This document shows, piece by piece, positions 18,063 to 64,000 of a DNA stretch of 64,000 nucleotides. Under the pieces are notes generated by a model. That model searched no databases. It was given only the letters and a program-made list of their open reading frames with translations, and was not told where the DNA came from. Position 1 is the first letter of the stretch. Each line of letters begins with the position of its first letter. This stretch comes from Tubiluchus corallicola (taxonomy: Eukaryota > Priapulida > Priapulimorpha > Priapulimorphida > Tubiluchidae). The DNA lies in assembly GCA_030141605.1 (NCBI GenBank), contig JAQGDQ010000167.1, positions 1 through 64,000 of the forward strand, read 5' to 3'. The position numbers and the translations under genes are program-made.

Positions 18063-20496
18063 GTAAGAATGATTGTAATTATTTAATTCTTCTAGCAATA
18101 TGCATTTTAATTTAGAATTTATTAGAGATATGTAGGCATACAGTTTTTGTTATATGAATGAATGTCTTTCTCGATTTTGATTAAGTAATAATAATAATAA
18201 TAGTAATAAAAATCGTTATCATCATCATCATCATCATTAATATGCAAAATCTTTAAACAGGATTGACCTGACTGAACACAGTGCTCATTTACAATAGAGT
18301 CCCAAGTTAAGAGGCAGCATGCAACAATAATCATAGATTACATCTAAACTTATACAAGAAATTGCTTAGATGATGTCTCAAGGCTTCGTAGCTTGAATAT
18401 TATTGATACATAAATTTACAGTTAACGCATATAGCTTAAATTGTATGATTTAACTTACTATACTTCAAGATATAAATGAAAAATTCATCTTGAAAGTGTT
18501 TCTTACGTGATTTCTAAATGCTTTGTCATTTGCACATTTGTTAGTTCTAAGTAATGGCAGTTTATAGTCGCCTCGGTGTTCTGATCGGTTATTATGATTA
18601 TGATCTGTTGGCAAAGTATCAGCAAATGAATGTGATGTGCAGATCTAATAAACTATTATTACTATGTTGGGATGTTCTTCAGCAATGTCCAGAATTGTTT
18701 AATAAGTTATTTCTTCAACAGTGTCCAAGAATGTCTAATAGCATATGTTCCTCAACAATCTCCTGAAGTGTCTAATAACATATGTTCTTCAACAAATGTA
18801 CAGGATTGTATAATAAGATATTTCTTCAACAATGTCCAAGAATGTCTACTAAGATATGTTCTTCAACAATGTCCAGGATTGCCAAATAAGATATGTTCTT
18901 CAACAATGTCCAAGATTGCCTAATAAGATTTGTTCTTCAACAATGTCCAAGATTGCCTAATAAGATATGTTCTTCTACAATGTCCAGGATTGTCTAATAA
19001 GATATGTTCTTCTACAATGTCCAGGATTGTCTACTAAGATATGTTCTTCAACAATGTCCAGGATTGTCTACTAAGATATGTTCTTCAACAATGTCCAGGA
19101 TTGTCTAATAAGATATGTTCTTCAACAATGTCCAGGATTGTCTACTAAGATATGTTCTTCTACAATGTCCAGGATTGTCTACTAAGATATGTTCTTCAAC
19201 AATGTCCAGGATTGTCTACTAAGATATGTTCTTCTACAATGTCCAGGATTGTCTAATAAGATATGTTCTTCAACAATGTCCAGGATTGTCTACTAAGATA
19301 TGTTCTTCAACAATGTCCAGGATTGTCTACTAAGATATGTTCTTCAACAATGTCCAGGATGGTCTAATAAGATATGTTCTTCAACAATGTCCAGAATTGT
19401 CTAATAAAATATTTCTTCAGCAATGTCCAGAATTGTCTAATAACATATGTTCCTCAACAATCTCCTGAAATGTCTAATAACATATGTTCTTCAACAAATG
19501 TCCAGGATTGTATAATAAGATATTTCTTCAACAATGTCCAGAATTGTCTAATAAGATATTTCTTAAATAATGTCCAAGAAAGTCTACTAAGATGTGTTCT
19601 TCAGCAATGTCCAGGATTGTCTAATAAGATATGTTCTTCTACAATGTCCAGGATTGTCTAATAAGATATGTTCTTCTACAATGTCCAGGATTGTCTAATA
19701 AGATATGTTCTTCAACAATGTCCAGGATTGTCTAATAAGATATGTTCTTCAACAATGTCCAGGATTGTCTAATAAGATATGTTCTTCTACAATGTCCAGG
19801 ATTGTCTAATAAGATATGTTCTTCAACAATGTCCAGGATTGTGTAATAAGATATGTTCTTCAACAATGTCCAGGATTGTCTAATAAGATATGTTCTTCTA
19901 CAATGTCCAGGATTGTCTAATAAGATATGTTCTTCAACAATGTCCAGGATTGTCTAATAAGATATGTTCTTCAACAATGTCCAGGATTACTTAATAAGAT
20001 ATGTTCTTCAACAATGTCGAGGATTGTGTAAATAAACTGAGATGTTCATTAATTGTAGACCTTCAATGTTTAAACTAAAAATACCATGCCTATTGTTATA
20101 AAAATTGTAACAGGTTATATGCATTTTAGACGAGTTATAAAATTGTAAAAATTTATCAAGCCGAAGCTGCATTGGATGTAAAGGAGCACAAAGGCTTTAA
20201 ACAGCATTTTTGTCTCCAAATCACTCCTTTTCAACTGCACCCCGTTTTTAGACTTATACATAAATTCTGACTAATAAGTAGGATACTGCAGTTTATAAAT
20301 GCAATCTGCTTCACCGTTATCTTTTGAAAAATTATTATATCATTTAATGTATTTCTTTTTTGAGTGTATGCTATAAAAGTTTATTTGGCATTCAAAACAC
20401 ACAGCTGATTGTTGGTACGATATTAGCTGTATTCTTTTTCTCTTAGTTTGAAAATTGCGTAAATCATTAGATGTTTTTGGGTTTTTCGTTTTTTAG
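18063..20496 (+). other. Intron between REJ exons 1 and 2
   Basis: Holds small TAA and ATC microsatellites near 18186-18236 and the large 37-bp minisatellite. No coding exon seen. Confidence 0.7.
18670..20031 (+). repeat. 37-bp minisatellite, about 37 copies
   Basis: Unit approximately agatatgttcttcaacaa followed by tgtccaggattgtctaata, repeated head to tail with variants at two or three positions (tctaata/tctacta, tcaaca/tctaca). Copies at both ends are more diverged, the centre is homogenised. No spacers, so not CRISPR. 37 is not a multiple of 3, and open frames through it switch phase. Confidence 0.97.
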
Positions 20497-20597
20497 GTAT
20501 ACGTGGTACTGTTACAAGGGAACAGGGGCCATGCCTGAAGCTAGTTCCACTGCTTTGGCATGTTATAGTAACTATACTGTTCAGCTGCCCTTTACAG
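20497..20597 (+). CDS. REJ module exon 2
   Basis: Acceptor ttttag, donor gtatgt, 101 nt, phase 2 to 1. Reads (S)Y-T-W-Y-C-Y-K-G-T-G, then C-Y-S-N-Y-T-V-Q-L-P-F-T. The Y-x-W-x-C motif is conserved in REJ modules after S-Y-D-P-D. Confidence 0.9.
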
Positions 20598-21249
20598 GTA
20601 TGTGAAATTAATCTTCCGAAGGAGAAAGAATGATAAAGTAAAAGGGTAAGAGTAAGATAACAGTATAGACTGTTAATTGTCAAGCCCTGGACAATTCTTA
20701 GTTCAAGGAAAGATTAGTACCAAGATTGGTCTTGAATTGATCAGTTTTTTGGATATCAGTTTAACAGTTTTGTCTTTAGATCATATGTAACTTATTCATT
20801 GTATGTAAAGGAAATTTTGTAATGAAAGATGGTAATGCAGCAGCACTAATCCTAACTTAAGGAAGAACCAACTCTCGAACAACATTTATTGCCTCTTAAT
20901 ATACAATTTAAAATATTGAGATGTACGCACAATATATGTGCATAGAATGCCTTGCTTAAAAATGTAAAAGAGATTTAAACATTTTTTATCTCCCGCCAAA
21001 TGATCGTGGCTGCCAGCATATTTGAAAAAACGACGTAAGCTGGTGACTGCTATCCAGCATGAATGCTGTGAAGGCAAACTGTGATGAAGGTATGCATTGA
21101 GATACAACTTTCAGATACACATGTAAACCTGCGAGCATGCAATATATACCGGGTGGGTTGCTTAGTTTACAGAGTTTGCTCTATAAGTCAAAAAATGATT
21201 GCTTAAGCACTTGGCAGAATTACTGTTTATATTGCGCATTAACCAGATT

Positions 21250-21420
21250 ATGCCATTTTTTACCAAAATGAGTGCGCCCAAGCGTGAAGTGATCGCAATT
21301 TTAAATTGAAATTATTAATTACACGAAGCGCTTATCATAGTTTAATTGCTGAAACTTTTCAACATTTTTCTCAAATATTAGAATAAGCTCAACTTCCCTT
21401 GACTTTTGCTTTAAAGGTTT
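21250..21420 (+). repeat. Dispersed repeat family B, fragment
   Basis: agtgcgcccaagcgtgaagt and the following aacattttt and aataagct stretches match the 3' part of the family B copies at 17080 and 25790. Right-arm counterpart at 62157-62327. Confidence 0.65.
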
Positions 21421-21833
21421 GCCTACTGAACAAACATTTTCTGAAAATGTTAATTGGTTTGTAGGTTTACCAAAAACAAAAACACAAAAGCAGTGCTTGT
21501 TCTTGCTGAGCCACCCAAACAGTAAAACTTTATTTAGACTTAACTAAATTCTCTATATTATTGGTGAGAATGTTGGGTTATAGAACTAAAAGTTTGCAGA
21601 TCAAACCCAGGCTGAATTCCAATAATTTCCTATTTATTTATGTTTGAAAAATTTGTAAAGTTTTACATAGCTAAGTTTCCTTTCCTCAAATAATTTGTAA
21701 ATTTCTGATTATGTTTTATAAGAAAAACGCAAGCAAATGGATTTACTAAACAGACATCTGGGTTTCAAATCTGGTTTTCTATGTGAAAACTTTAACACAG
21801 TTCACTGAGCCCAACTTCTTATGTTTGTTTCAG

Positions 21834-21981
21834 AGGCGTCTTTCACAATTCCTGAGAAGAGTTTAACGTTGTTTTCAACTTTGACTTTTGTTCTCTTTTT
21901 TGGAAAGGCAAACCGGACTGTCCAGTCTACAAAACAAATTATAAATACTTACCTTGGAGACAGACCTGTTATTAAAATAAG
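21834..21981 (+). CDS. REJ module exon 3
   Basis: Acceptor tttcag, donor gtaaca, 148 nt, phase 1 to 2. Reads E-A-S-F-T-I-P-E-K-S-L, V-L-F-F-G-K-A-N-R-T-V-Q-S-T-K-Q, and L-G-D-R-P-V-I-K-I. Matches the REJ stretch with an R-x-S-type turn followed by G-x-x-P-x-V. Confidence 0.9.
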
Positions 21982-22432
21982 GTAACATTCAAATAAACTG
22001 GTCATTTTTCTGTTTCAGCATGTTTGTTATTTAATTAATTTTTCGCAAAAAATATGGATTCTAATTTAATTGGATACAATAGTAGTATTGGTAGAATACT
22101 CAGGACATTTTTGAATATTTCAGTTTGTTTAGAATAAGGGAAAGGAGATAGTAAAACAGCTGCCAGAATTTTGGATGATATGGGCTCTGACAAACTGCTA
22201 TGTTTCTGATAATCGAGTATTAGTTTAATTCAACAAATTTTAGAGTTTCTTCATAACAAAAGTCACTGATGGAGTATAAAATTTATTCCTTTATCTATTC
22301 ATTAGTGCGACCATATCAGCCAGTTTGTAGTATTTCTACTATGTACAATATATGTATGCATTCTGAAATGCCTTCAAGCTTGTACTTATATATGCGTGCT
22401 TGTATTAATAAAAATTTACAAGTGATTCAATT

Positions 22433-22807
22433 AGCCTTTTCACAGTTTCAGTGATTGATGACGATCGTGAAAACGTCAAAAGTTAAGTGAACCACGCAAT
22501 ATATTTTTGTACACTTTGCATCGCCTTTTGTGTTAGTAAAATTTTTTTCAGCTAGGTAGAACCTTAGCTAGTTCAATTTTTTTTTGCTCACAAGCAAGAT
22601 CCTGCTAGTAAATCACTCTATACACAGATTAATACATAATTAAGTAATGTCCACATAAAACAATTGAAGTTACTGAACTGATGCAGTAGACGGCTTCGCT
22701 TTACCCACATGTCATGTGACGGTTGCAGTTAAGATGCTTTGCTGTTGTACACTTAACCTTTGACCTACAGCAACTGCACATGTTCACAACGAAACTGTGA
22801 AAAGGCT
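22433..22807. mobile_element. MITE family A, full-length copy with terminal inverted repeats
   Basis: The ends are inverted repeats: agccttttcacagtttc at 22433 and gaaactgtgaaaaggct ending 22807. 375 bp, no coding capacity. A non-autonomous DNA transposon, superfamily not assigned. Related partial copies at 9645-9931 and 38297-38611. Confidence 0.85.
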
Positions 22808-22811
22808 TATT

Positions 22812-22890
22812 GCAAAAGTTAGTTAACGTATTCTGGCTAAGCAGAGGCCTAAGTTCAAACCCCAGCAGAGGTTGACTTTTTGAACAACTT
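22812..22890 (+). repeat. tRNA-like (SINE) fragment
   Basis: gttagttaacgtattctggc with aagttcaaaccccagc, close to the B box of tRNA genes. No full cloverleaf. Probably the head or remnant of a SINE. Confidence 0.35.
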
Positions 22891-22958
22891 TCAGTGCAAA
22901 AATTAAGTTGAAAACAATTTGGTCATGCAAACAATACAAAATTTCACGTTTCATTTAG

Positions 22959-23188
22959 GTGCTTAAAGAACTGTGAAGCAAAAGCCAACCATGAGGAAAA
23001 TCTTGTTCTGCAGGCCGAATGTACAAGCTGTGGAGAAACCTCTCTGCATTATGTTTGGTCGGTCAAGACTAGTAATGACCACTTATTTGACATTGCTTCG
23101 ATGTCATCGTTTTGTTCAGAGACTGATATCTTCCTGATAAAGAAAAATGCATTTGAAGAAGGAGAAAATTACACAGTTGAAGCGAAAG
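22959..23188 (+). CDS. REJ module exon 4
   Basis: Acceptor atttag, donor gtaata, 230 nt, phase 2 to 1. Reads C-L-K-N-C-E-A-K-A-N, L-V-L-Q-A-E-C-T-S-C-G-E, L-H-Y-V-W-S-V, ending G-E-N-Y-T-V-E-A-K. The C-x3-C, C-x2-C and Y-x-W-x-V pattern is the diagnostic centre of REJ modules. Confidence 0.93.
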
Positions 23189-23907
23189 GTAATAACTGTA
23201 AGCAGTGTTTTGTACATGTTACACGATGCATGAGCAAAATGCAAGAATGACTGTTTTTCAAAACATGAACAGAATGAACGATTTTCCATAATAATATCTG
23301 AGACAAAGATGAAGGAAACATTGGAAGATAAAGGAGCTAACAGAGTTTATTAACAATTTATTACCTGTTTGTTTTTATTTATTTAAGTAGATTAAGGTAG
23401 ATATTTCGAAAGTAGATGTAGATACTGTAGATATCTGTAGAAGCTGAGGAAAATAAATTAAAGGTAGGTGAGAAAAAGGTAGTTGTTCCAAACACTGACT
23501 GTAAGATTGGTAAGAATGGGCCAGACACTTGTATAGGATGATTTGCCAGTTTGTTCATGTTTCTGTTTTCTGTTTTATGTGATCCATGTATGTGATGATA
23601 TCAATGTCAGTAGTTTTTCTGCTTATTTCTTTCAAAATTTTCATAAACATTGTCATGTGTCGGGCTGAAACCTGACTTGCTAGCCTAAGTACATGTGTGG
23701 AGAGTAAAATTAAGTCACCAGTGAACTGTTATTGCACCTGCTGTTCGTGACGAAGGCATTAAAGTATATTCTAGTTTATGCAAACCTGATATCGCGAGAA
23801 CAGTAGTTTAGAGATTTAAAAGCAACTAAAGTAAATTCTTTACCACTGAAGTGTACAGTTGCCTGAGCTGATATTTGAACTAATTTGTAAAATGTTCTGC
23901 AGCATAA

Positions 23908-24310
23908 TCAGGGCAGGATTATTCTATAGACTAGTATAGACTGTGGCACAGGGCCGTTCAGGCTTGGGGCCCTCAAGAGGGCTGGATTATCCTATACACT
24001 AGTATAGGCTACAATGCTGGAAACTTGGGACCCTCAAGCTTTGGTGAAAAGTCTGTTTTTTTACTATAGTTGTGTTGAAATACGTGTTAATTTGTTTTGC
24101 AACAAATAGTAAAATAGTAGTTTTTCTTAAACAATATTTTTATTGACAAACAAAAGATAGTAATTCTAGTTTATTTAAAGAATTTGCTAGTTCACTTCAA
24201 GCTACGTAAATGTCGCGAAAATATATCATGTATGAAAAACATTTAAGTGTCAAGAGTTAGAGGGTGACTCCGTCACAGGGGGCTCCATAATTTCATTAGT
24301 CTGTGCCTGC
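23908..24310. repeat. Degenerate MITE-like repeat
   Basis: Contains ggattattctatagactag and a second copy ggattatcctatacactag about 60 bases later, with gggccctcaag blocks, ending ggggctccataatttc then attagtctgtgcctgc. The layout recalls common non-autonomous elements of invertebrates, but ends and target duplication are not resolved. Confidence 0.4.
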
Positions 24311-24423
24311 TTATAATGTATGTAATTTATTGTATACTCACTATGGCATTTTACTACTACTGGTACTACTTATTTATACTAATATCAGATACATTGTCAT
24401 GTCATTAATGCTGTTTTGTTTAG

Positions 24424-24519
24424 GTCATCTGAAAAGTGGTGGTTTTGGAATGGCTACACACGAGCTTTATGTTAATGAGCGGCCTGTGCCGGCAAATTGT
24501 ACTGTTATGCCGGTTAAAG
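24424..24519 (+). CDS. REJ module exon 5
   Basis: Acceptor gtttag, donor gtaagt, 96 nt, phase 1-1. Reads G-H-L-K-S-G-G-F-G-M-A-T-H-E-L-Y-V-N-E-R-P, then A-N-C-T-V-M-P-V-K. Matches the REJ strand pair L-x-V-N-x-x-P-x-x-G-x-C-x-V-x-P. Confidence 0.92.
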
Positions 24520-24733
24520 GTAAGTCTTTATCACATATGCTCAACATTAGCCATGACATGTCCTGTGCAGTTTTAAATTCTGCATCTTCTTGAAAGATAT
24601 ACTAAAATTTGAATATCTAAGAAGTTTTTGCACCTCTTCTGTTTATTTGGAACAATTGGCAGCTTACAATCTTGAGTTTTGACCATCGTGCATATTTCTG
24701 CTAATAAAAGCTCTTTTTTCTACATCTATTAAG

Positions 24734-24841
24734 GCATTGCTGTGGTTACCGAATTTTCTGTTGACTGTGAGAATTATATTGATGAAGACGTTCCATTAAC
24801 ATATGAATTTCACTACACAAGGGGCAACGAACTGAAACATG
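24734..24841 (+). CDS. REJ module exon 6
   Basis: Acceptor attaag, donor gtatgt, 108 nt, phase 1-1. Reads G-I-A-V-V-T-E-F-S-V-D-C-E-N-Y-I-D-E-D-V-P-L-T-Y-E-F. This is the highly conserved G-x-A-x-x-T-x-F-x-x-x-C and D-x-D-x-P-L-x-Y signature of REJ. Confidence 0.95.
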
Positions 24842-25314
24842 GTATGTATTATTTATCTAAATGTGCAATATATTGCTTATTATTAGTAAATTTAAGGGTA
24901 TTGTTGTTGTTATTATTATTATTATTTTTTTTTTAAGGGTATCGAAGTCCAATTAAATACTGATCGATATTCTTATCAGTTTAAAATTTATCTTACTCAT
25001 CTGACAATGTCTGACTCTAGTATTCATCTTTTATTAATGTATTGTTTACCATGGCAACAGTATTTGTAAAGTGCATTACTTCACTTAAGCGGTTCAGTTA
25101 TGAAATTGTTAATAATTGACAGAGCAGCATTTCAAGTTGTTTCCTTTCTTCTTTCTAAATAGAAAAATGTTTAGCTGCACTATAGCAAATAAAGATAAAA
25201 TCATTTTAGTTTGCAGGGTTTTGTAATTTGTCATATTGTATCAATGGTGTGTCAGCTAAAAATAAGCTCAGGTTAACAGTTTGGCTGTGGTTATCCAACA
25301 TTTTAGGATTATAA

Positions 25315-25789
25315 TAATCATACCTCCGTTGTCAAACGTCCCCGTACTCGTACAAAACGGTTTTCGACCAGAAAATTCGAGCTGAAATTGTCTGAAAATG
25401 CATGCACGGCGAACCGAGTAGAGCCGAGTGTAACCGACCACGCCCGAGAGTAGTCACGCATAACATTTGAATCGCCTAACATCGCTAAGTGCTTTCTCCA
25501 CTTCTTTTTTATGGGTTTTTTCGTGCATGAATAATTATGTTTTTCTTTGTGAGTAATTCTATTAAGTTTTTCTTATTAATTATATCATATTGACTGTTTG
25601 AATAAACATTTTTGCATTATTTTATTTCGTTTTAGTAATACTTTACAGTTCATTTGGTGCTTGAGAACAGATTATTTGTTCCACACTTTTACATTATTTC
25701 TTATGGAAATCAGTACTCAACCAAATCGGTTTTCAAACACTCTTTAGGAACGAATTGTAGTCGAAAACAGTGGTACTACTGTATATTAA
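25315..25789. repeat. MITE-like repeat with degenerate terminal inverted repeats
   Basis: One end reads cctccgttgtcaaacgtc and the other, reversed, tagtaccactgttttcgac followed by ttcgttcctaaag. Internally it has ttcttatggaaatcagtac and similar blocks typical of a widespread animal MITE type. No coding frame. Superfamily not assigned. Confidence 0.55.
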
Positions 25790-26295
25790 AGGAAAGGATA
25801 AGTCACTTAAACTTAGAAAAATGTAACAAATAAATTTTTAAAAAGCTGTCTACATATCGTAAAGTTAATTTATGCTATCACTGTATAGAAATTTTCGAGT
25901 GTAGTGGTAGTCGTCATTCACTTGAAAATTACAACGTAATTGTTGGACTTCGTGACTTTTTATAAGCGCAAGATGGCTTTCCGTAAACACGCAAATGCTT
26001 AAATTCACTCAAACATCTGCAGCTTATCTAATATTCATGCAAAAATATCGCAATATTAGCTATCTATTTTTTTTGCAAAAACTTATACTTTTTACGGAAA
26101 TTGACGGTGCACTACTTTCCTTCAGTCAATGAACGACATCATTGGTAAAAGAGTGGAAGTAGAAAATGGGAGCGCCCAAATGTGAAAAGATTGTGACTTT
26201 AAGCTTTCTTCACTTAATTATACTAGGAGCTTATCATGCTGTTATTACTAAATTCTTCGATTGTTTTTTGTGAACTTGAAATAAGCTTTTTATAC
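25790..26295 (+). repeat. Dispersed repeat family B
   Basis: Second long copy of the family at 17080-17640, with the same order of landmarks (aaaggaaag, gctgtctacat, gcagcttatctaat, aaattgacggtgcac, gaaaatgggagcgccc). Confidence 0.7.
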
Positions 26296-26415
26296 AGACA
26301 CTGCATTGTACATGTATAAGCAATAAACTCATAGAGAAGTCTCGGCTTTTCCTGTAATTACACTGAGATTAAGATACAAAGAATGCTTATCTAAATTTAT
26401 GACAATCTGTTTCAG

Positions 26416-26561
26416 AGACATTATTACACTACGGTTCTGAGCCTAAACTTCCACCTACTCTCCTATCTCCTGGCTTGGCAGAGAGGAATTATACAGCAGA
26501 ATTAGTGCTTATGGTGTCGGATTCATATAAATCAGCTACTTGGTCGAAATTTAATGTCACG
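26416..26561 (+). CDS. REJ module exon 7
   Basis: Acceptor tttcag, donor gtaaac, 146 nt, phase 1 to 0. Reads E-T-L-L-H-Y-G-S-E-P, T-L-L-S-P-G-L, and A-E-L-V-L-M-V-S-D-S-Y. Matches the REJ L-P-x-G and x-V-x-D closing strands. Confidence 0.9.
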
Positions 26562-26949
26562 GTAAACACTCTGGTTTATACTAGTTACATTTAAGTCTGA
26601 TTATTCTTTATGTTCTGCATAAGTATGTTGCATAATTTTTATATAACAAATTTCTTATTTATTTGTAGATTTAATCAGTTTTGTTAATGTATAATTTGTA
26701 TGTAAACAACATCAGGCTTTCGGTTTGTCTCCATTTGCATTAGTTATGCTGCATTTCCTCTGCCACAGAGAGATAGTAAAAATTAGCCTGTTTTCATGTG
26801 CAACAATTTTATAATTAAAACTAGCTGATTTAGTTTTAATTATTAATTAGATGTAGTTCTATGAAGCTCGTATTTCGAATCAACGATAACACTTTAACGA
26901 ACATATACTGAGATATGCACGGTAAAGTTTTTGAACCACAAACAGTGGC

Positions 26950-26950
<1 letters not shown>

Positions 26951-27030
<80 letters not shown>

Positions 27031-27056
27031 CGTCATCATCAATCATCATCATCACA
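26951..27056. repeat. (CAT)n microsatellite
   Basis: About 35 trinucleotides with a few interruptions. Its right-arm counterpart (56551-56620) is 36 bp shorter, i.e. 12 repeats fewer. Confidence 0.97.
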
Positions 27057-27541
27057 TGCCTATTACATCTATTGTAGGCAGTCGGCAGGCAGTATTCTAA
27101 AATAAAAGAAATCTGCCCTCAAGACAGATAAGCACAGCAGTAATCCCGCAAAAAACTAGACGCTGCTATGCCAGTGGCTTGTTAGGACCACTGCCGTTAA
27201 CTTCAATTATATAGATAGTGAATGTAACATGGAAATTTTTTTTCGGAAAGACACAGACTAATAAACCTAGAATTATTTGTAAAACTTTCCAAGACTTGTA
27301 CAATGGAGAACATCTCCAACGAGAATAAGAATGTTCATGTGGAGTTTTAAACACGGTGTAAAAAATCAATCTTATTACAATAATATCATTGGATTATTTT
27401 CTGTCAATATTGTTATTGCTGTCATTGTCGTATTGTTATTTTCTTCTCGAATATTGTTTCTTTGTTTTTGCCCTTTTCATTATTTTTTGGTAAGTTTACA
27501 ACGGTAGCATTAACGTTGTATGTGCTCGATGGATATTGCAG

Positions 27542-27692
27542 GTGTACCCGTACGGGCATGCCGATCTCCAGTTCCAGTTCGCAACAGTTCCTGAAATGGA
27601 CGTTTACGATGCGTTGAAAAAGCTGACCGTTTCAAGTGACTCTGATGGACCAAGTAAAGTTGATGAATTGTTAAAGGCCGGCGACATACAAA
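27542..27692 (+). CDS. REJ module exon 8
   Basis: Acceptor ttgcag, donor gtacat, 151 nt, phase 0 to 1. Reads V-Y-P-Y-G-H-A-D-L-Q-F-Q, then L-K-K-L-T-V-S-S and E-L-L-K-A-G-D-I-Q. The helical L-x(n)-G-D segment follows the last REJ beta-domain in polycystins. The donor sits at the start of a 130-bp tandem repeat. Confidence 0.85.
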
Positions 27693-28010
27693 GTACATAA
27701 GTGATTTTGTGATGATTAAGAGTTGTTGCTAGCTTACAATGTCCGAATCTATTTAAGCATAGATAACGACGACAATGACGAAAACCACGATGGTGACCAC
27801 GACCACGATGACGGTGTGCAAAGAACATAAGTGATTTTGTGGTGATTAAGAGTTGTTGGTAACTTACAATGTCCGAATCTATTTAGGCATTGATAACGAC
27901 GACGATGACGACAACCACGACCACGATGACGACATGCAAAGAACATAAGTGATATTGTGATGAATAAGAGATATTGGTAACTTACAATGTCCGAATCTCT
28001 GCAATGACCA
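27684..28010 (+). repeat. Tandem ~117-130 bp repeat, three copies
   Basis: Units start at about 27684, 27814 and 27931. Each has caaag-t/a-acataagtg, then a taagagttgttgg-type stretch, then acaatgtccgaatct, then an acgacgacgatgacg-type tract. The first copy includes the 3' end and donor of the adjacent exon; copies 2 and 3 have gaacat where the donor has gtacat. Confidence 0.9.
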
Positions 28011-28331
28011 CGACGACAACAACAGCAACAACATTGCTTTGTATATTAAAAGAGAAAGAATTGTGATGTTTTTTTGGGTTTTTTCAAGAGTAGCATAATG
28101 TGTACATATTACATTATGAGTGATGTCACAAGATGACCTCAGGTGACCTTGATTTATGTGTTTTATTTCACTTGGTAATGCATTTCTAAATGGCTTTCCT
28201 TTTTTCATAAATGCAAGATCTTTAGAGGAGCGACTGCCATTTCGATTTTCAACCAAATTAATTGAATTAGCTGTGAGGGTTAGTTGTTGTAGATTGGATA
28301 AGTGCATATAGATATATAAACATAAACAGTA

Positions 28332-28956
28332 TACCGTATATACTCATGTACAAGTCCAATTTTTGGGAGGCGATTTTAAGGTGAAATTTTTGGAGGTCGA
28401 GTTATACTTACGATATGTTTTCGGGAGATTTCGCCAAAGAGTCATCTACAATACGAATATGTAAAGAAATAATCCTTCATTATACGCTGGACTGAATGAA
28501 CAATCATACTGTGATACTTCACATCAGAGAATGTTCGCAACTTCACATTACTTCACAAAATTCACAAATATGACTGTAATTTATTTTAATGTATGTGAAA
28601 TTAAGTTAAAATTTATATATTATCGGTAAATAAACTAGCGATGGAGCACTCGATCAGAACATGGAAATCGCCAATGTTGTGCAGGTGCTGCTGCCTATCG
28701 GCTTCCGCAGGAAGTTTTCCACTGGCCTTGTATATGCGTGTTTTATTGGCAAAATATCGATTACCAGCATACATGCATAAATTTAACGCAACTATTGATT
28801 TATTATTCGGCCATAGTTGACATCATTTACTCTGGAAGATCTTAATATTTTATGGTCGACTTGTACACAGGTAATATATAAAATGATGCAATTTCTGATC
28901 TTAAAATGCACATCGACTTGTACATAAGGTCGACTTGTACACACGTATATACGGTA
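28332..28956. mobile_element. MITE with TACCGTATATAC terminal inverted repeats
   Basis: Begins taccgtatatactcatg followed by tacaagtc, and ends cgacttgtacacacg followed by tatatacggta. An inner cgacttgtacacagg lies near 28858. 625 bp, no coding capacity. A non-autonomous DNA transposon; TSD not clear. Confidence 0.8.
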
Positions 28957-52608: not shown

Positions 52609-52769
52609 CTGTAATTAACAAAATAAAAAATTGCATAGAAAAAAATTCATGGACTTAAAATGTATACAACTTTTCGCTAATAAAAGACAAATCACAGCTA
52701 TTTCCTTCAATACATGCAGCAAGTCCATGCTTAAAGCAAAACCGGATCCCGTCTTAAACTGCAGGTCAA

Positions 52770-53390
52770 AACAATCTACTCGTTAAAATATTGTAGGAAA
52801 CATGCTATTTATTTGAAAATGACTTACGTGAAAGAATTGTTATCACACAAACACAAATTTGCTTTCGAGCCACAAGTTCATCGCTGTTACATGCATTTCG
52901 CTAGTTGTTCACTAGTTAGATAGGCACTAGCGCCTGCATTTCGAAAACACATTGCACAAAAAACAGGTGCTGTACCTCTCAGTTCAGACGTGTTAGTTTA
53001 CAACAAACTGCACACGTTCGACAGCTCATGTGTGAACACAGCGGTAAATTTGTAATATGAATTTTTATCTTAAAATATGCCTAGTTTTAGTACAATATCT
53101 TACAGTAGCACTGTACTTCAATTTTTGCCCCACAAACACGCTACATGCTCATGGAATATTTTTGATGTTAAAAATTATGTTCGTTTGTGATTTCATCAAT
53201 AGTTGGGCTTGCAAGCCATTAATTAAGTTTTTAATCTATTATTTAATTATCAGAAATGCTTTTGCAGTATTAATTGTGTTAAAATGCATACTTTTGTCCA
53301 ACTTGAAAATGGTGTAGTATATGAAAAATCATCCTGTCTTCCTTTAATGACACTAATGTGATCCAGCAAAGTGAAACGAAACGATATTTT
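52770..53390 (+). repeat. Dispersed repeat family D (right arm)
   Basis: Counterpart of 30216-30836; same orientation as the copy at 13840-14470. Confidence 0.65.
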
Positions 53391-53702
53391 CATTAAAAAA
53401 CAATGTAGAAGAATACAGTTCAATTCCACGAACAAAAATTGATAATTCTTGGGTCATAGATCAAACATTTTACTGACTTTCATTGCCTGCACAAGTGCAC
53501 TATGTCTCTACAAGCCAACAATTTATAAACAAAGAGTACATTGGGATGACATCATAACAACGGTCCAGCAAAAAATGCCCAAAATTAGACCTACAATTAA
53601 CTTCCAGTTATTGGTCGTGGAAAGAGTGTTTGCAAAAGAAGAGAGTTTCCTGGGTCCCTCTTTGCAAAGAAATTTCCCTACAAGCGTTCAGCGCATTGTT
53701 AC

Positions 53703-53851
53703 CTGAGCTTTTTTCTGCAGAAATGCTCGCTCTTCTTCTTTTTCCTGCCAAGTTTTATGCTTTTTGGTTGGTGAGACGCCGTCATGACGCGTGAGACGCG
53801 TCACATTCGCATTCAGCACAGATGTCGCAACATTCACTATAGTTGCAATAC
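53703..53851 (-). CDS. REJ module exon 9, minus copy
   Basis: Inverted counterpart of 29755-29903; S-V-L-N motif and splice sites conserved. Confidence 0.87.
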
Positions 53852-54649
53852 CTAAAGAAGACTACTAAACTTTTGTAATAATATCCGCTTTAAAAAAACA
53901 GCAAAAGGTCTTAGTCAGAGACACAATTTAGGTGACCATGGTATGCAAAAAACTTAGATGTTTCAACTATCACTGCAATCACATCAGTAAACAGTAAAAC
54001 TATCAGTAAAATACAAGATTTTTTAAAAAGCCAACTCTGTATATTTAGAGTCAACAGCAGATTAGCCCTTTCTTAACTATGATAAATAGAAATGCAGCAA
54101 AGTATAAGCAAATATGTAGAAAACCATTATGGCCCGAGGTGATAGGGACGTCTGATAAATTCCCTCAATACTATTATTACTACTTCTACTACTTAATGCA
54201 ATTTGGGTAAATACCACCTTGGGTGGCACTAAATTTGGAAAAAAACATCTTAACAGTCAATGTGGCCTTTACTTGACATTACTCGACGACAACAGAAACA
54301 GTTCTTAGACATAACCATTAGTAATTTTTTGTAGCACTGTATTTAGTCAAACAAACATTTATACGCTTCTATTGTACAGATAGAATCGGCATGAAAATAT
54401 TTTCAACACAAAACGACCTCGCCACATCGGCACTACTCATACTAGCAAAACTGACAAATTTACATACTGGCAAAACTGACAAATTTACAAAAAGTTCCAG
54501 AGGCGACAATTTCAGATGGAGTGAAGAACACGAAAGCAGGGGAACATGAATGCAGGCTATACTTGCTTCACTTCTATTGAAGGATGCAAATAGACCATAA
54601 TAGGCAATTAGCATAACTATACACTGGAACCGAATATACATATTTTAAT

Positions 54650-55274
54650 TACCGTATATACGTGTGTACAAGTCGACCTTATGTACAAGTCCACGTGCAT
54701 TTTAAGACCAAACATTGCATCATTTTATATCTTACCTGTGTACAAGTCGACCATAAAATATTAAGATCTTCCAGAGTAAATGATGTCAACTATGGCCGAA
54801 TAATAAATCAATAGTTGCGTTAAATTTATGCATGTATGCTGGTAATCGATATTTTGCCAATAAAACACGCATATACAAGGCCAGTGGAAAACTTCCTGCG
54901 GAAGCCGATAGGCAGCAGCACCTGCACAACATTGGCGATTTCCATGTTCTGATCGAGTGCTCCATCGCTAGTTTATTTACCGGTAATATATAAATTTTAA
55001 CTTAATTTCACATACATTAAAATAAATTACAGTCATATTTGTGAATTTTGTGAAGTAATGTGAAGTTGCGAACATTCTCTGATGTGAAGTATCACAGTAT
55101 GATTGTTCATTCAGTCCAGCGTATAATGAAGGATTATTTCTTTACATATTCGTATTGTAGATGACTCTTTGGCGAAATCTCCCGAAAACATATCGTAAGT
55201 ATAACTCGACCTCCAAAAATTTCACCTTAAAATCGCCTCCCAAAAATTGGACTTGTACATGAGTATATACGGTA
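54650..55274. mobile_element. MITE with TACCGTATATAC ends (right arm)
   Basis: Counterpart of 28332-28956 with a few substitutions. Confidence 0.8.
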
Positions 55275-55595
55275 TACTGTTTATGTTTATATATCTATAT
55301 GCACTTATCCAATCTACAACAACTAACCCTCACAGCTAATTCAATTAATTTGGTTGAAAATCGAAATGGCAGTCGCTCCTCTAAAGATCTTGCATTTATG
55401 AAAAAAGGAAAGCCATTTAGAAATGCATTACCAAGTGAAATAAAACACATAAATCAAGGTCACCTGAGGTCATCTTGTGACATCACTCATAATGTAATAT
55501 GTACACATTATGCTACTCTTGAAAAAACCCAAAAAAACATCACAATTCTTTCTCTTTTAATATACAAAGCAATGTTGTTGCTGTTGTTGTCGTCG

Positions 55596-55922
55596 TGGTC
55601 ATTGCAGAGATTCGGACATTGTAAGTTACCAATATCTCTTATTCATCACAATATCACTTATGTTCTTTGCATGTCATCATCGTGGTCGTGGTTGTCGTCA
55701 TCGTCGTCGTTATCAATGCCTAAATAGATTCGGACATTGTAAGTTACCAACAACTCTTAATCACCACAAAATCACTTATGTTCTTTGCATACCGTCATCG
55801 TGGTCGTGGTCACCATCGTGGTTTTCGTCATTGTCGTCGTTATCTATGCTTAAATAGATTCGGACATTGTAAGCTAGCAACAACTCTTAATCATCACAAA
55901 ATCACTTATGTACTTTGTATGT
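55596..55922 (-). repeat. Tandem ~117-130 bp repeat (right arm)
   Basis: Counterpart of 27684-28010; three copies retained. Confidence 0.88.
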
Positions 55923-56064
55923 CGCCGGCCTTTAACAATTCATCAACTTTACTTGGTCCATCAGAGTCACTTGAAACGGTCAGCTTTTTCAACGCATCGT
56001 AAACGTCCATTTCAGGAACTGTTGCGAACTGGAACTGGAGATCGGCATGCCCGTACGGGTACAC
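55914..56064 (-). CDS. REJ module exon 8, minus copy
   Basis: Inverted counterpart of 27542-27692, apparently identical in coding sequence. Confidence 0.85.
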
Positions 56065-56550
56065 CTGCAATATCCATCGAGCACATACAACGTTAATGCT
56101 ACCGTTGTAAACTTACCAAAAAATAATGAAAAGGGCAAAAACAAAGAAACAATATTCGAGAAGAAAATAACAATACGACAATGACAGCAATAACAATATT
56201 GACAGAAAATAATCCAATGATATTATTGTAATAAGATTGATTTTTTACACCGTGTTTAAAACTCCACATGAACATTCTTATTCTCGTTGGAGATGTTCTC
56301 CATTGTACAAGTCTTGGAAAGTTTTACAAATAATTCTAGGTTTATTAGTCTGTGTCTTTCCGAAAAAAAATTTCCATGTTACATTCACTATCTATATAAT
56401 TGAAGTTAACGGCAGTGGTCCTAACAAGCCACTGGCATAGCAGCGTCTAGTTTTTTGCGGGATTACTGCTGTGCTTATCTGTCTTGAGGGCAGATTTCTT
56501 TTATTTTAGAATACTGCCTGCCGACTGCCTACAATAGATGTAATAGGCAT

Positions 56551-56564
56551 GTGATGATGATGAT

Positions 56565-56620
<56 letters not shown>
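56551..56620. repeat. (ATG)n microsatellite (right arm)
   Basis: Counterpart of the CAT tract at 26951-27056 but 36 bp shorter and less interrupted. Confidence 0.97.
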
Positions 56621-57008
56621 GCCACTGTTTGTGGTTCAAAAACTTTACCGTGCATATCTCAGTATATGTTCGTTAAAGTGTTATCGTTGATTCGAAATAC
56701 GAGCTTCATAGAACTACATCTAATTAATAATTAAAACTAAATCAGCTAGTTTTAATTATAAAATTGTTGCACATGAAAACAGGCTAATTTTTACTATCTC
56801 TCTGTGGCAGAGGAAATGCAGCATAACTAATGCAAATGGAGACAAACCGAAAGCCTGATGTTGTTTACATACAAATTATACATTAACAAAACTGATTAAA
56901 TCTACAAATAAATAAGAAATTTGTTATATAAAAATTATGCAACATACTTATGCAGAACATAAAGAATAATCAGACTTAAATGTAACTAGTATAAACCAGA
57001 GTGTTTAC

Positions 57009-57154
57009 CGTGACATTAAATTTCGACCAAGTAGCTGATTTATATGAATCCGACACCATAAGCACTAATTCTGCTGTATAATTCCTCTCTGCCAAGCCAG
57101 GAGATAGGAGAGTAGGTGGAAGTTTAGGCTCAGAACCGTAGTGTAATAATGTCT
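57009..57154 (-). CDS. REJ module exon 7, minus copy
   Basis: Inverted counterpart of 26416-26561; splice sites conserved. Confidence 0.9.
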
Positions 57155-57274
57155 CTGAAACAGATTGTCATAAATTTAGATAAGCATTCTTTGTATCTTA
57201 ATCTCAGTGTAATTACAGGAAAAGCCGAGACTTCTCTATGAGTTTATTGCTTATACATGTACAATGCAGTGTCT

Positions 57275-57780
57275 GTATAAAAAGCTTATTTCAAGTTCAC
57301 AAAAAACAATCGAAGAATTTAGTAATAACAGCATGATAAGCTCCTAGTATAATTAAGTGAAGAAAGCTTAAAGTCACAATCTTTTCACATTTGGGCGCTC
57401 CCATTTTCTACTTCCACTCTTTTACCAATGATGTCGTTCATTGACTGAAGGAAAGTAGTGCACCGTCAATTTCCGTAAAAAGTATAAGTTTTTGCAAAAA
57501 AAATAGATAGCTAATATTGCGATATTTTTGCATGAATATTAGATAAGCTGCAGATGTTTGAGTGAATTTAAGCATTTGCGTGTTTACGGAAAGCCATCTT
57601 GCGCTTATAAAAAGTCACGAAGTCCAACAATTACGTTGTAATTTTCAAGTGAATGACGACTACCACTACACTCGAAAATTTCTATACAGTGATAGCATAA
57701 ATTAACTTTACGATATGTAGACAGCTTTTTAAAAATTTATTTGTTACATTTTTCTAAGTTTAAGTGACTTATCCTTTCCT
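57275..57780 (-). repeat. Dispersed repeat family B (right arm)
   Basis: Counterpart of 25790-26295. Confidence 0.7.
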
Positions 57781-58255
57781 TTAATATACAGTAGTACCAC
57801 TGTTTTCGACTACAATTCGTTCCTAAAGAGTGTTTGAAAACCGATTTGGTTGAGTACTGATTTCCATAAGAAATAATGTAAAAGTGTGGAACAAATAATC
57901 TGTTCTCAAGCACCAAATGAACTGTAAAGTATTACTAAAACGAAATAAAATAATGCAAAAATGTTTATTCAAACAGTCAATATGATATAATTAATAAGAA
58001 AAACTTAATAGAATTACTCACAAAGAAAAACATAATTATTCATGCACGAAAAAACCCATAAAAAAGAAGTGGAGAAAGCACTTAGCGATGTTAGGCGATT
58101 CAAATGTTATGCGTGACTACTCTCGGGCGTGGTCGGTTACACTCGGCTCTACTCGGTTCGCCGTGCATGCATTTTCAGACAATTTCAGCTCGAATTTTCT
58201 GGTCGAAAACCGTTTTGTACGAGTACGGGGACGTTTGACAACGGAGGTATGATTA
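57781..58255. repeat. MITE-like repeat (right arm)
   Basis: Counterpart of 25315-25789. Confidence 0.55.
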
Positions 58256-58728
58256 TTATAATCCTAAAATGTTGGATAACCACAGCCAAACTGTTAACCT
58301 GAGCTTATTTTTAGCTGACACACCATTGATACAATATGACAAATTACAAAACCCTGCAAACTAAAATGATTTTATCTTTATTTGCTATAGTGCAGCTAAA
58401 CATTTTTCTATTTAGAAAGAAGAAAGGAAACAACTTGAAATGCTGCTCTGTCAATTATTAACAATTTCATAACTGAACCGCTTAAGTGAAGTAATGCACT
58501 TTACAAATACTGTTGCCATGGTAAACAATACATTAATAAAAGATGAATACTAGAGTCAGACATTGTCAGATGAGTAAGATAAATTTTAAACTGATAAGAA
58601 TATCGATCAGTATTTAATTGGACTTCGATACCCTTAAAAAAAAAATAATAATAATAATAACAACAACAATACCCTTAAATTTACTAATAATAAGCAATAT
58701 ATTGCACATTTAGATAAATAATACATAC

Positions 58729-58836
58729 CATGTTTCAGTTCGTTGCCCCTTGTGTAGTGAAATTCATATGTTAATGGAACGTCTTCATCAATATAATTCT
58801 CACAGTCAACAGAAAATTCGGTAACCACAGCAATGC
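58729..58836 (-). CDS. REJ module exon 6, minus copy
   Basis: Inverted counterpart of 24734-24841 with the conserved REJ signature. Confidence 0.93.
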
Positions 58837-59050
58837 CTTAATAGATGTAGAAAAAAGAGCTTTTATTAGCAGAAATATGCACGATGGTCAAAACTCAAGA
58901 TTGTAAGCTGCCAATTGTTCCAAATAAACAGAAGAGGTGCAAAAACTTCTTAGATATTCAAATTTTAGTATATCTTTCAAGAAGATGCAGAATTTAAAAC
59001 TGCACAGGACATGTCATGGCTAATGTTGAGCATATGTGATAAAGACTTAC

Positions 59051-59146
59051 CTTTAACCGGCATAACAGTACAATTTGCCGGCACAGGCCGCTCATTAACA
59101 TAAAGCTCGTGTGTAGCCATTCCAAAACCACCACTTTTCAGATGAC
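59051..59146 (-). CDS. REJ module exon 5, minus copy
   Basis: Inverted counterpart of 24424-24519; splice sites conserved. Confidence 0.9.
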
Positions 59147-59259
59147 CTAAACAAAACAGCATTAATGACATGACAATGTATCTGATATTAGTATAAATAA
59201 GTAGTACCAGTAGTAGTAAAATGCCATAGTGAGTATACAATAAATTACATACATTATAA

Positions 59260-59662
59260 GCAGGCACAGACTAATGAAATTATGGAGCCCCCTGTGACGG
59301 AGTCACCCTCTAACTCTTGACACTTAAATGTTTTTCATACATGATATATTTTCGCGACATTTACGTAGCTTGAAGTGAACTAGCAAATTCTTTAAATAAA
59401 CTAGAATTACTATCTTTTGTTTGTCAATAAAAATATTGTTTAAGAAAAACTACTATTTTACTATTTGTTGCAAAACAAATTAACACGTATTTCAACACAA
59501 CTATAGTAAAAAAACAGACTTTTCACCAAAGCTTGAGGGTCCCAAGTTTCCAGCATTGTAGCCTATACTAGTGTATAGGATAATCCAGCCCTCTTGAGGG
59601 CCCCAAGCCTGAACGGCCCTGTGCCACAGTCTATACTAGTCTATAGAATAATCCTGCCCTGA
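59260..59662. repeat. Degenerate MITE-like repeat (right arm)
   Basis: Counterpart of 23908-24310. Confidence 0.4.
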
Positions 59663-60381
59663 TTATGCTGCAGAACATTTTACAAATTAGTTCAAATATC
59701 AGCTCAGGCAACTGTACACTTCAGTGGTAAAGAATTTACTTTAGTTGCTTTTAAATCTCTAAACTACTGTTCTCGCGATATCAGGTTTGCATAAACTAGA
59801 ATATACTTTAATGCCTTCGTCACGAACAGCAGGTGCAATAACAGTTCACTGGTGACTTAATTTTACTCTCCACACATGTACTTAGGCTAGCAAGTCAGGT
59901 TTCAGCCCGACACATGACAATGTTTATGAAAATTTTGAAAGAAATAAGCAGAAAAACTACTGACATTGATATCATCACATACATGGATCACATAAAACAG
60001 AAAACAGAAACATGAACAAACTGGCAAATCATCCTATACAAGTGTCTGGCCCATTCTTACCAATCTTACAGTCAGTGTTTGGAACAACTACCTTTTTCTC
60101 ACCTACCTTTAATTTATTTTCCTCAGCTTCTACAGATATCTACAGTATCTACATCTACTTTCGAAATATCTACCTTAATCTACTTAAATAAATAAAAACA
60201 AACAGGTAATAAATTGTTAATAAACTCTGTTAGCTCCTTTATCTTCCAATGTTTCCTTCATCTTTGTCTCAGATATTATTATGGAAAATCGTTCATTCTG
60301 TTCATGTTTTGAAAAACAGTCATTCTTGCATTTTGCTCATGCATCGTGTAACATGTACAAAACACTGCTTACAGTTATTAC

Positions 60382-60611
60382 CTTTCGCTTCAACTGTGTA
60401 ATTTTCTCCTTCTTCAAATGCATTTTTCTTTATCAGGAAGATATCAGTCTCTGAACAAAACGATGACATCGAAGCAATGTCAAATAAGTGGTCATTACTA
60501 GTCTTGACCGACCAAACATAATGCAGAGAGGTTTCTCCACAGCTTGTACATTCGGCCTGCAGAACAAGATTTTCCTCATGGTTGGCTTTTGCTTCACAGT
60601 TCTTTAAGCAC
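60382..60611 (-). CDS. REJ module exon 4, minus copy
   Basis: Inverted counterpart of 22959-23188; C-x3-C, C-x2-C and Y-x-W conserved. Confidence 0.92.
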
Positions 60612-60762
60612 CTAAATGAAACGTGAAATTTTGTATTGTTTGCATGACCAAATTGTTTTCAACTTAATTTTTGCACTGAAAGTTGTTCAAAAAGTCAACC
60701 TCTGCTGGGGTTTGAACTTAGGCCTCTGCTTAGCCAGAATACATTAACTAACTTTTGCAATA

Positions 60763-61137
60763 AGCCTTTTCACAGTTTCGTTGTGCATAAGTGCAGTTGC
60801 TGTAGGTCAAAGGTTAAGTGTACAACAGCAAAGCATCTTAACTGCAACCGTCACATGACATGTGGGTAAAGCGAAGCCGTCTACTGCATCAGTTCAGTAA
60901 CTTCAATTGTTTTATGTGGACATTACTTAATTATGTATTAATCTGTGTATAGAGTGATTTACTAGCAGGATCTTGCTTGTGAGCAAAAAAAAATTGAACT
61001 AGCTAAGGTTCTACCTAGCTGAAAAAAATTTTACTAACACAAAAGGCGATGCAAAGTGTACAAAAATATATTGCGTGGTTCACTTAACTTTTGACGTTTT
61101 CACGATCGTCATCAATCACTGAAACTGTGAAAAGGCT
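60763..61137. mobile_element. MITE family A, full-length copy (right arm)
   Basis: Counterpart of 22433-22807 with both terminal repeats; several substitutions, for example tgcataagtgcagttgc against the left-arm version. Confidence 0.85.
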
Positions 61138-61588
61138 AATTGAATCACTTGTAAATTTTTATTAATACAAGCACGCATATATAAGTACAAGCTTGAAGGC
61201 ATTTCAGAATGCATACATATATTGTACATAGTAGAAATACTACAAACTGGCTGATATGGTCGCACTAATGAATAGATAAAGGAATAAATTTTATACTCCA
61301 TCAGTGACTTTTGTTATGAAGAAACTCTAAAATTTGTTGAATTAAACTAATACTCGATTATCAGAAACATAGCAGTTTGTCAGAGCCCATATCATCCAAA
61401 ATTCTGGCAGCTGTTTTACTATCTCCTTTCCCTTATTCTAAACAAACTGAAATATTCAAAAATGTCCTGAGTATTCTACCAATACTACTATTGTATCCAA
61501 TTAAATTAGAATCCATATTTTTTGCGAAAAATTAATTAAATAACAAACATGCTGAAACAGAAAAATGACCAGTTTATTTGAATGTTAC

Positions 61589-61736
61589 CTTATTTTAATA
61601 ACAGGTCTGTCTCCAAGGTAAGTATTTATAATTTGTTTTGTAGACTGGACAGTCCGGTTTGCCTTTCCAAAAAAGAGAACAAAAGTCAAAGTTGAAAACA
61701 ACGTTAAACTCTTCTCAGGAATTGTGAAAGACGCCT
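61589..61736 (-). CDS. REJ module exon 3, minus copy
   Basis: Inverted counterpart of 21834-21981; splice sites conserved. Confidence 0.9.
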
Positions 61737-62156
61737 CTGAAACAAACATAAGAAGTTGGGCTCAGTGAACTGTGTTAAAGTTTTCACATAGAAAACCAGA
61801 TTTGAAACCCAGATGTCTGTTTAGTAAATCCATTTGCTTGCGTTTTTCTTATAAAACATAATCAGAAATTTACAAATTATTTGAGGAAAGGAAACTTAGC
61901 TATGTAAAACTTTACAAATTTTTCAAACATAAATAAATAGGAAATTATTGGAATTCAGCCTGGGTTTGATCTGCAAACTTTTAGTTCTATAACCCAACAT
62001 TCTCACCAATAATATAGAGAATTTAGTTAAGTCTAAATAAAGTTTTACTGTTTGGGTGGCTCAGCAAGAACAAGCACTGCTTTTGTGTTTTTGTTTTTGG
62101 TAAACCTACAAACCAATTAACATTTTCAGAAAATGTTTGTTCAGTAGGCAAACCTT

Positions 62157-62327
62157 TAAAGCAAAAGTCAAGTCTCTCGGGAAGTTGAGCTTATTCTAAT
62201 ATTTGAGAAAAATGTTGAAAAGTTTCAGCAATTAAACTATGATAAGCGCTTCGTGTAATTAATAATTTCAATTTAAAATCGCGATCATTTCACGCTTGGG
62301 CGCACTCATTTTGGTAAAAAATGGCAT
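62157..62327 (-). repeat. Dispersed repeat family B, fragment (right arm)
   Basis: Counterpart of 21250-21420, with small differences (ctctcgggaag for tcccttgac). Confidence 0.6.
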
Positions 62328-62979
62328 AATCTGGTTAATGCGCAATATAAACAGTAATTCTGCCAAGTGCTTAAGCAATCATTTTTTGACTTATAGAGCA
62401 AACTCTGTAAACTAAGCAACCCACCCGGTATATATTGCATGCTCGCAGGTTTACATGTGTATCTGAAAGTTGTATCTCAATGCATACCTTCATCACAGTT
62501 TGCCTTCACAGCATTCATGCTGGATAGCAGTCACCAGCTTACGTCGTTTTTTCAAATATGCTGGCAGCCACGATCATTTGGCGGGAGATAAAAAATGTTT
62601 AAATCTCTTTTACATTTTTAAGCAAGGCATTCTATGCACATATATTGTGCGTACATCTCAATATTTTAAATTGTATATTAAGAGGCAATAAATGTTGTTC
62701 GAGAGTTGGTTCTTCCTTAAGTTAGGATTAGTGCTGCTGCATTACCATCTTTCATTACAAAATTTCCTTTACATACAATGAATAAGTTACATATGATCTA
62801 AAGACAAAACTGTTAAACTGATATCCAAAAAACTGATCAATTCAAGACCAATCTTGGTACTAATCTTTCCTTGAACTAAGAATTGTCCAGGGCTTGACAA
62901 TTAACAGTCTATACTGTTATCTTACTCTTACCCTTTTACTTTATCATTCTTTCTCCTTCGGAAGATTAATTTCACATAC

Positions 62980-63080
62980 CTGTAAAGGGCAGCTGAACAG
63001 TATAGTTACTATAACATGCCAAAGCAGTGGAACTAGCTTCAGGCATGGCCCCTGTTCCCTTGTAACAGTACCACGTATAC
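62980..63080 (-). CDS. REJ module exon 2, minus copy
   Basis: Inverted counterpart of 20497-20597, the most upstream exon of this copy in the window. REJ exon 1 would be past base 64000. Confidence 0.88.
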
Positions 63081-63544
63081 CTAAAAAACGAAAAACCCAA
63101 AAACATCTAATGATTTACGCAATTTTCAAACTAAGAGAAAAAGAATACAGCTAATATCGTACCAACAATCAGCTGTGTGTTTTGAATGCCAAATAAACTT
63201 TTATAGCATACACTCAAAAAAGAAATACATTAAATGATATAATAATTTTTCAAAAGATAACGGTGAAGCAGATTGCATTTATAAACTGCAGTATCCTACT
63301 TATTAGTCAGAATTTATGTATAAGTCTAAAAACGGGGTGCAGTTGAAAAGGAGTGATTTGGAGACAAAAATGCTGTTTAAAGCCTTTGTGCTCCTTTACA
63401 TCCAATGCAGCTTCGGCTTGATAAATTTTTACAATTTTATAACTCGTCTAAAATGCATATAACCTGTTACAATTTTTATAACAATAGGCATGGTATTTTT
63501 AGTTTAAACATTGAAGGTCTACAATTAATGAACATCTCAGTTTA

Positions 63545-64000
63545 TTTACACAATCCTCGACATTGTTGAAGAACATATCTTATTAAGTAATCCTGGACAT
63601 TGTTGAAGAACATATCTTATTAGACAATCCTGGACATTGTTGAAGAACATATCTTATTAGACAATCCTGGACATTGTAGAAGAACATATCTTATTAGACA
63701 ATCCTGGACATTGTTGAAGAACATATCTTATTACACAATCCTGGACATTGTTGAAGAACATATCTTATTAGACAATCCTGGACATTGTAGAAGAACATAT
63801 CTTATTAGACAATCCTGGACATTGTTGAAGAACATATCTTATTAGACAATCCTGGACATTGTTGAAGAACATATCTTATTAGACAATCCTGGACATTGTA
63901 GAAGAACATATCTTATTAGACAATCCTGGACATTGTAGAAGAACATATCTTATTAGACAATCCTGGACATTGCTGAAGAACACATCTTAGTAGACTTTCT
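63545..64000 (-). repeat. 37-bp minisatellite (right arm, cut by window end)
   Basis: About 12 copies, reverse complement of the 3' part of 18670-20031. Base 64000 pairs with 19577. Confidence 0.97.

Follow-up and report, generated by a model that had tools for sequence, protein, structure and literature searches.

The first 83,576 bases of scaffold C2061 of the priapulid Tubiluchus corallicola are their own mirror image except for a 3,141-bp spacer. From the sequence, we conclude that this palindrome is very probably an assembly artefact: at the end of the scaffold, a single locus was folded back and one arm written twice. The window that we analyzed is the 64,000-nucleotide stretch formed by bases 1-64000 of C2061 (458,203 bp), in a genome record of 343,548,820 bases and 2,344 contigs. 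Both arms carry what appears to be the 5′ half of a polycystin-1-like receptor gene, the 3′ half of which seems to lie on a second scaffold, C225. The palindrome is a genuine property of the assembled sequence but most likely not of the genome: the right arm is most likely the genuine, collinear copy, and the left arm most likely repeats it spuriously in inverted form.

Mirrored ends and the two joins

Compared with itself by BLASTN, the window pairs 19577-40233 with 64000-43375 over 20,708 columns at 98.9% identity, at the same coordinates where the first-pass annotation had placed two near-identical inverted arms. Coordinate 19577 is not an arm end but a mere consequence of the window edge at 64000. 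When C2061:60001-100000 is added, the arms run over 1-40233 and 83576-43375 (40,282 columns, 99.4% identity, inverted), which agrees with the annotation's lower bound of 20.6 kb and brings the full arms to ~40 kb; what it called a 3.1-kb spacer is the 3,141 bp at 40234-43374.

The partner of scaffold base 1 is base 83576, immediately followed by 4,300 Ns (83577-87876). The outer ends of the two arms coincide to the base within the 269-bp EGF array. A fold-back artefact should show mirrored arms with a shared last base, lying where a contig or scaffold ends: a second writing of one assembled stretch would produce an identical stopping base, which would not be expected of two real copies built from different long reads. 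The absence of indels between the arms in both the EGF array, whose mirror (scaffold 75826-83576) aligns to 1-7751, and the 37-bp minisatellite, whose mirrored copy spans the right edge of the window (63546-64000), also favors a second writing.

Right after the N run, C2061 87877-90050 begins with 515 bp of EGF array in reverse orientation; next come an element with inverted ends (~88392-89905) and a short piece of EGF sequence oriented like the gene. Two thirds of the element recur inverted at 95623-96664 (99.8% identity). The reversed array may be caused by the scaffold join or by the adjoining element.

The two inner arm ends differ in how they meet the spacer. On the right, the native passage from arm to spacer is undisturbed and reads ...TTTTCCTACCTTAACAAAAACAG... 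The novel left join reads ...TTTTCCTACCTTAACCCTAATAC... and goes into a 43-bp tandem array with 8 bases in common (ACCTTAAC); when the two stretches were joined at random in 200,000 simulations, only 0.022% of the joins shared 8 bases or more. A single-copy spacer (here 3,141 bp) together with a short inverted homology (here ACCTTAAC) is also what a real fold-back inverted duplication should leave. Since living and artefactual fold-backs share this junction signature, the junction alone cannot decide between them. The first-pass annotation had held a simple hairpin read artefact to be unlikely on account of the spacer and the single-nucleotide polymorphisms (SNPs). As a dismissal of a fold-back artefact, that argument is unsound: snap-back by a short match leaves a single-copy loop, and clusters of SNPs may arise later, by allele mixing in consensus building or polishing.

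In the genuine order, as we would reconstruct it, the 5′ side of the gene is followed by the right arm (83576 to 43375), the spacer, the 43-bp array, and the PLAT and channel exons of C225. The C2061 path would turn inside the 43-bp array and retrace the arm backwards, stopping in the EGF array where the other arm does. The fold-back was probably triggered by a chimeric molecule or read, in which a 3′ end halting at 40226 would anneal to positions 43382-43375 of the same strand through the 8-bp match and copy back along the arm, and the 3,141-bp loop left by the snap-back would be the spacer.

Two other technical routes are not favored. A simple hairpin read from a missing adapter would give no spacer, unlike a snap-back on an 8-bp stem, which leaves a 3.1-kb loop. 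A De Bruijn graph crossing would take place at a long shared repeat, whereas the sequence common to arm and array at the join is just 8 bases long. The 43-bp repeat at 40226-40453 contains telomere-like CCCTAA words, and stretches related to it (67-75% identity) are present on at least 37 other scaffolds.

The collinear copy on C225 and the differences between arms

A normal collinear order that contradicts the inverted one, as a fold-back artefact would lead one to expect, exists in the assembly. Scaffold C225 (131,535 bp) holds the arm end and the spacer in collinear order at ~94-95% identity: C225 80-654 and 773-2969 match C2061 37460-40233, and C225 6065-773 (minus strand) matches C2061 40226-45555. 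On C225, an array related to the 43-bp repeat goes on to ~6399, followed by sequence that leads to PLAT and channel exons. The 344-amino-acid open frame of the spacer differs from its C225 counterpart by five nucleotides and one amino acid; the counterpart has no Pfam match.

Polycystin-1-like receptors have the domain order EGF, REJ, PLAT, channel. The arm contains the REJ exon, and the PLAT, Polycystin_dom, and PKD_channel matches lie on C225 past the shared spacer, the pieces of this architecture being on separate scaffolds; neither C2061 arm continues into PLAT, polycystin, or channel exons. Given the domain order, C225 appears to complete the arm gene, holding the 3′ half of a gene whose 5′ half is in the arms. 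Since the PLAT and channel exons come after the array on C225, the fold-back would cut the gene on C2061.

To count copies, we used a low-repeat piece of the arm (33600-37300) as the query; the whole arm was unusable, dispersed repeats having filled the best 38 of 18,347 candidates, with the query's own place not among them. Within the best 40 of 3,874 genome-wide candidates, the only long matches of the arm piece are the two C2061 arms, and the others are a ~550-bp dispersed repeat or short pieces. For C225 6500-9500, the best 40 of 1,311 candidates include one long match, itself; the matches on 36 other scaffolds are to a ~200- to 425-bp repeat near the end of the query or, on C1894, over 629 bp at 73% identity. 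Two dispersed repeats in the window (~620 bp at 30259-30876 and ~550 bp at ~35370-35930) have dozens of copies at 82-86% identity among the matches listed.

The inner arms show 0 differences in 2,926 aligned columns, and C225 is ~4% different there (one poorly aligning first block left out). In a diploid, C225 and the arms would represent the two haplotypes; because the arms are identical where C225 differs, both arms look like one haplotype.

Over the whole ~40-kb arm, alignment of arm against arm (MAFFT) gives 125 substitutions (74 transitions and 51 transversions; 0.31% divergence) and 13 indels, the first of them at 21397 and the largest, 36 bp, in a CAT microsatellite. The substitutions are strongly grouped, into 24 clusters: 97 of the 124 neighboring pairs are ≤60 bp apart, whereas 1,000 random placements gave 21 such pairs on average and never more than 34. 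Most (93 of 125) fall between 31627 and 37130, and the last difference, at 37130, is near the start of the C225 match (~37347). The clustered differences could be second-haplotype alleles picked up by either writing: reads of the second haplotype, which has no scaffold of its own left of C225, may have leaked into either arm during consensus building or polishing.

Other scaffold starts and further features

We fetched the first 800 bases of 20 scaffolds and dropped 10 of them (two all N, three of low complexity, one repetitive, and four bacterial-looking by eye, a judgment applied unevenly, C500 having been kept although its score was no higher than that of a dropped start). The two all-N starts are C900:1-800 and C1200:1-800. 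One 160-base piece from each of the 10 starts kept was then searched against the genome (best 40 of 776 candidates). An inverted copy on the same scaffold was found for three of the 10: C1000 (100%), C2340 (100%), and C2200 (96%). The starts of C400, C500, and C1800 have a 99-100% copy on another scaffold, which suggests that certain stretches appear in the assembly on two or more scaffolds; those of C100, C300, C800, and C1100 have no other copy at ≥96% among the matches listed. The cross-scaffold pairs are C1800/C1597, C400/C1687, and C500/C2213. One further scaffold matched by a scaffold-start query, C866 (22,307 bp), has two oppositely oriented copies of the piece, one close to each end, and both C2340 and C866 begin in a tandem array.

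C1000 has the same anatomy as C2061, with ~38-kb arms and a 1.7-kb spacer. Its base 1 pairs with 78419, an N run occupies 78420-78545, and the inner arm ends, at 38291 and 39965, are at or in tandem repeats: a 104-bp array starts at one of them, and the other falls within short repeats. In the parts compared, its arms are 100% identical over the outer 800 bases and 98.7% over the inner 2,300. The other two palindromes are smaller, with arms at 1-1577 and 3951-5527 in C2340 (99.9%) and at 1-2138 and 5310-7540 in C2200 (96-97%), and no N run was met in the stretch fetched of either scaffold.

As a local control, none of 70 interior 160-bp pieces of C225 had an inverted copy (≥150 bp, ≥96%) in C225 1-80000. 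Compared with the three of 10 scaffold starts searched genome-wide, the difference is in the expected direction, although the control is small, drawn from a single scaffold, and narrower in scope.

Table 1. Features of the palindrome and of the collinear scaffold (positions in C2061, which are also those of the window, unless C225 is given)
Feature	Position	Strand	Basis and remarks
Left arm	1..40233	+	Starts at scaffold base 1; 99.4% inverted match to C2061 83576-43375; most likely a spurious second writing
Right arm	43375..64000, going on past the window to scaffold base 83576	-	Arm end and spacer collinear with C225; most likely the genuine copy
Spacer, 3,141 bp	40234..43374		Loop of the fold-back; collinear with C225 6065-2969, minus strand, ~95%
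43-bp tandem array, 5.3 copies	40226..40453		TRF; holds the fold-back join; matches C225 5850-6399
8-bp microhomology at the novel left join	40226..40233		ACCTTAAC; arm end is the start of a unit of the 43-bp array
Native partner of the 8-bp match	43375..43382		Arm passes undisturbed into spacer
344-amino-acid open frame in spacer	40553..41584	-	Same strand as the right-arm gene; counterpart encoded at C225 4719-5750
Stretch with most arm differences	31627..37130		93 of 125 substitutions
Tandem array, 269-bp EGF exon/intron unit, 28.8 copies	1..7751	+	TRF
37-bp minisatellite, ~37 copies	18672..20047		TRF; no indel between arms
REJ-domain exon of polycystin-1-like gene	22912..23247	+	Pfam PF02010, E 8e-10
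Second PLAT	C225 11055-11273		Pfam, under the curated cut-off
PLAT exon	C225 18157-18447		Pfam, E 1e-4
Polycystin_dom and PKD_channel	C225 37166-38302		Pfam, E 4.5e-21 and 8.8e-32
CTP synthase	C225 43001-44911		Pfam

Three reading frames of the left arm were compared with Pfam, one matching EGF, one REJ, and one without a match. Among all nine frames tested, those without a match number three: the C225 counterpart of the spacer frame, window 16318-17079, and C225 24704-25447. A 142-amino-acid open frame at window 10852-11277 is, by eye, a candidate piece of a LINE-type reverse transcriptase.

Alternative explanations and known systems

Several points weigh against an assembly fold-back. The palindrome is known here from assembled sequence alone, and living fold-back inverted duplications, too, would fit its 8-bp match and its spacer of 3.1 kb. 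If the assembler was graph-based, a shared branching point could have halted two real arms that are almost the same. The differences between the arms consist of variant-like clusters and indels of ≤36 bp, not of homopolymer read errors, and two real copies undergoing gene conversion could produce such a pattern. With 24 clusters over 40 kb, the clean 3.1 kb could be due to chance, and leakage of alleles gives no special account of the sparse differences left of 31.6 kb. Finally, the sample of scaffold starts comprises 10 of the 20 fetched, and two of its palindromes could be ordinary inverted repeats, since no N was met in the stretch fetched of either, C2200 reaches only 96-97%, and C2340 begins within tandem repeats.

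One alternative is a real, recent inverted duplication in the sequenced animal, which we consider unlikely. A break in the 43-bp array would have been resected, folded back at the 8-bp match, and copied, giving a gene-truncating palindromic allele of which C225, as the other allele, could be the normal form. Such an event would account for a microhomology of a length rarely reached by chance and for the spacer, and human fold-back junctions are described with the same signature (PMC3907307). It would not lead one to expect arms that end at exactly mirrored bases, at a scaffold end and an N run, with the same arrangement on C1000, nor an EGF array and a minisatellite without indels between the arms; and inverted copies at three of 10 scaffold starts seem too many for independent rearrangements.

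The first-pass annotation had offered, besides a real duplication, an assembly in which two haplotypes were joined in inverted orientation. It was right to list an assembly joint, but the two-haplotype version fits poorly, and we regard a tail-to-tail joining of two haplotypes of one locus, by the assembler or the scaffolder, as very improbable. The clustered differences and indels do look allelic, and published accounts name assembly artefacts or erroneous scaffolding as possible sources of palindromes (PMC5916493, PMC7953838). However, the arms do not differ as haplotypes do: they are identical over the inner 2.9 kb, where C225, the other haplotype or copy, is ~4% off, and their substitution divergence is just 0.31% overall. 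In addition, the join lies inside sequence, without N, at an 8-bp match. Just as improbable is a genome really rich in fold-back inverted duplications, formed by snap-back at tandem arrays, haplotype-polymorphic or somatic and hence breaking scaffolds, with C2061 a palindromic null allele of the polycystin-1-like gene.

If the palindrome is an artefact, as we think very probable, one part of a gene is shown twice and truncated, with the remainder on another scaffold, and anyone counting gene copies, inverted repeats, or palindromes in this assembly would arrive at figures that are too high. A mirrored stretch may stand at the beginning of a sizeable share of scaffolds, as it does for three of the 10 starts tested. 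If the palindrome were real, it would show an animal genome soon after a fold-back duplication, which is seldom possible. Literature searches, which were not aimed at the species, met no paper on the locus.

Three kinds of known system resemble the C2061 palindrome. The first is whole-genome (multiple displacement) amplification, for which the chimera counts in PMC1855051 give 406 inverted chimeras out of 475, 337 of these having joined segments <10 kb apart, and complementary stretches of 2-21 nucleotides in >70% of junctions. The C2061 join is likewise inverted, between segments <10 kb apart, at a short complementary match. Palindromic reads after amplification are also held responsible for inverted duplications in an assembly in the part of PMC6218980 concerned with them, and here, too, inverted duplications would have been carried through to the assembly. 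Unlike amplification chimeras, the C2061 arms are 40 kb long, beyond what one chimeric read needs, and the assembler would have to extend the fold-back; the likeness lies in the geometry of the junction.

The second comprises artificial assembly palindromes. In one published Adineta vaga assembly, palindromes of homologous copies occur that were not seen in A. ricciae, and the relevant passage of PMC5916493 names artefacts as one possible cause beside true differences; a survey includes the warning that palindromes can come from erroneous scaffolding (PMC7953838). As in the accounts given there, homologous copies are inverted on one scaffold, with several cases per assembly. The sides of the palindromes described in those passages are homologous gene copies, whereas the sides of C2061 are nearly the same sequence and the divergent copy is C225.

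The third is human fold-back duplications. In the junction data of PMC3907307, all 21 sequenced junctions have a spacer (766-70,466 bp, median 3,428); 13 have 2-8 bp of inverted microhomology, three lie in LINE or Alu repeats, and five have insertions. A single-copy spacer of a few kilobases and an inverted microhomology within the 2- to 8-bp range are shared by C2061. The human cases, as presented in these data, were seen in patient DNA by array comparative genomic hybridization and breakpoint sequencing; the C2061 arms, in contrast, are bounded by a scaffold end and an N run, and similar arrangements are seen at other scaffold starts.

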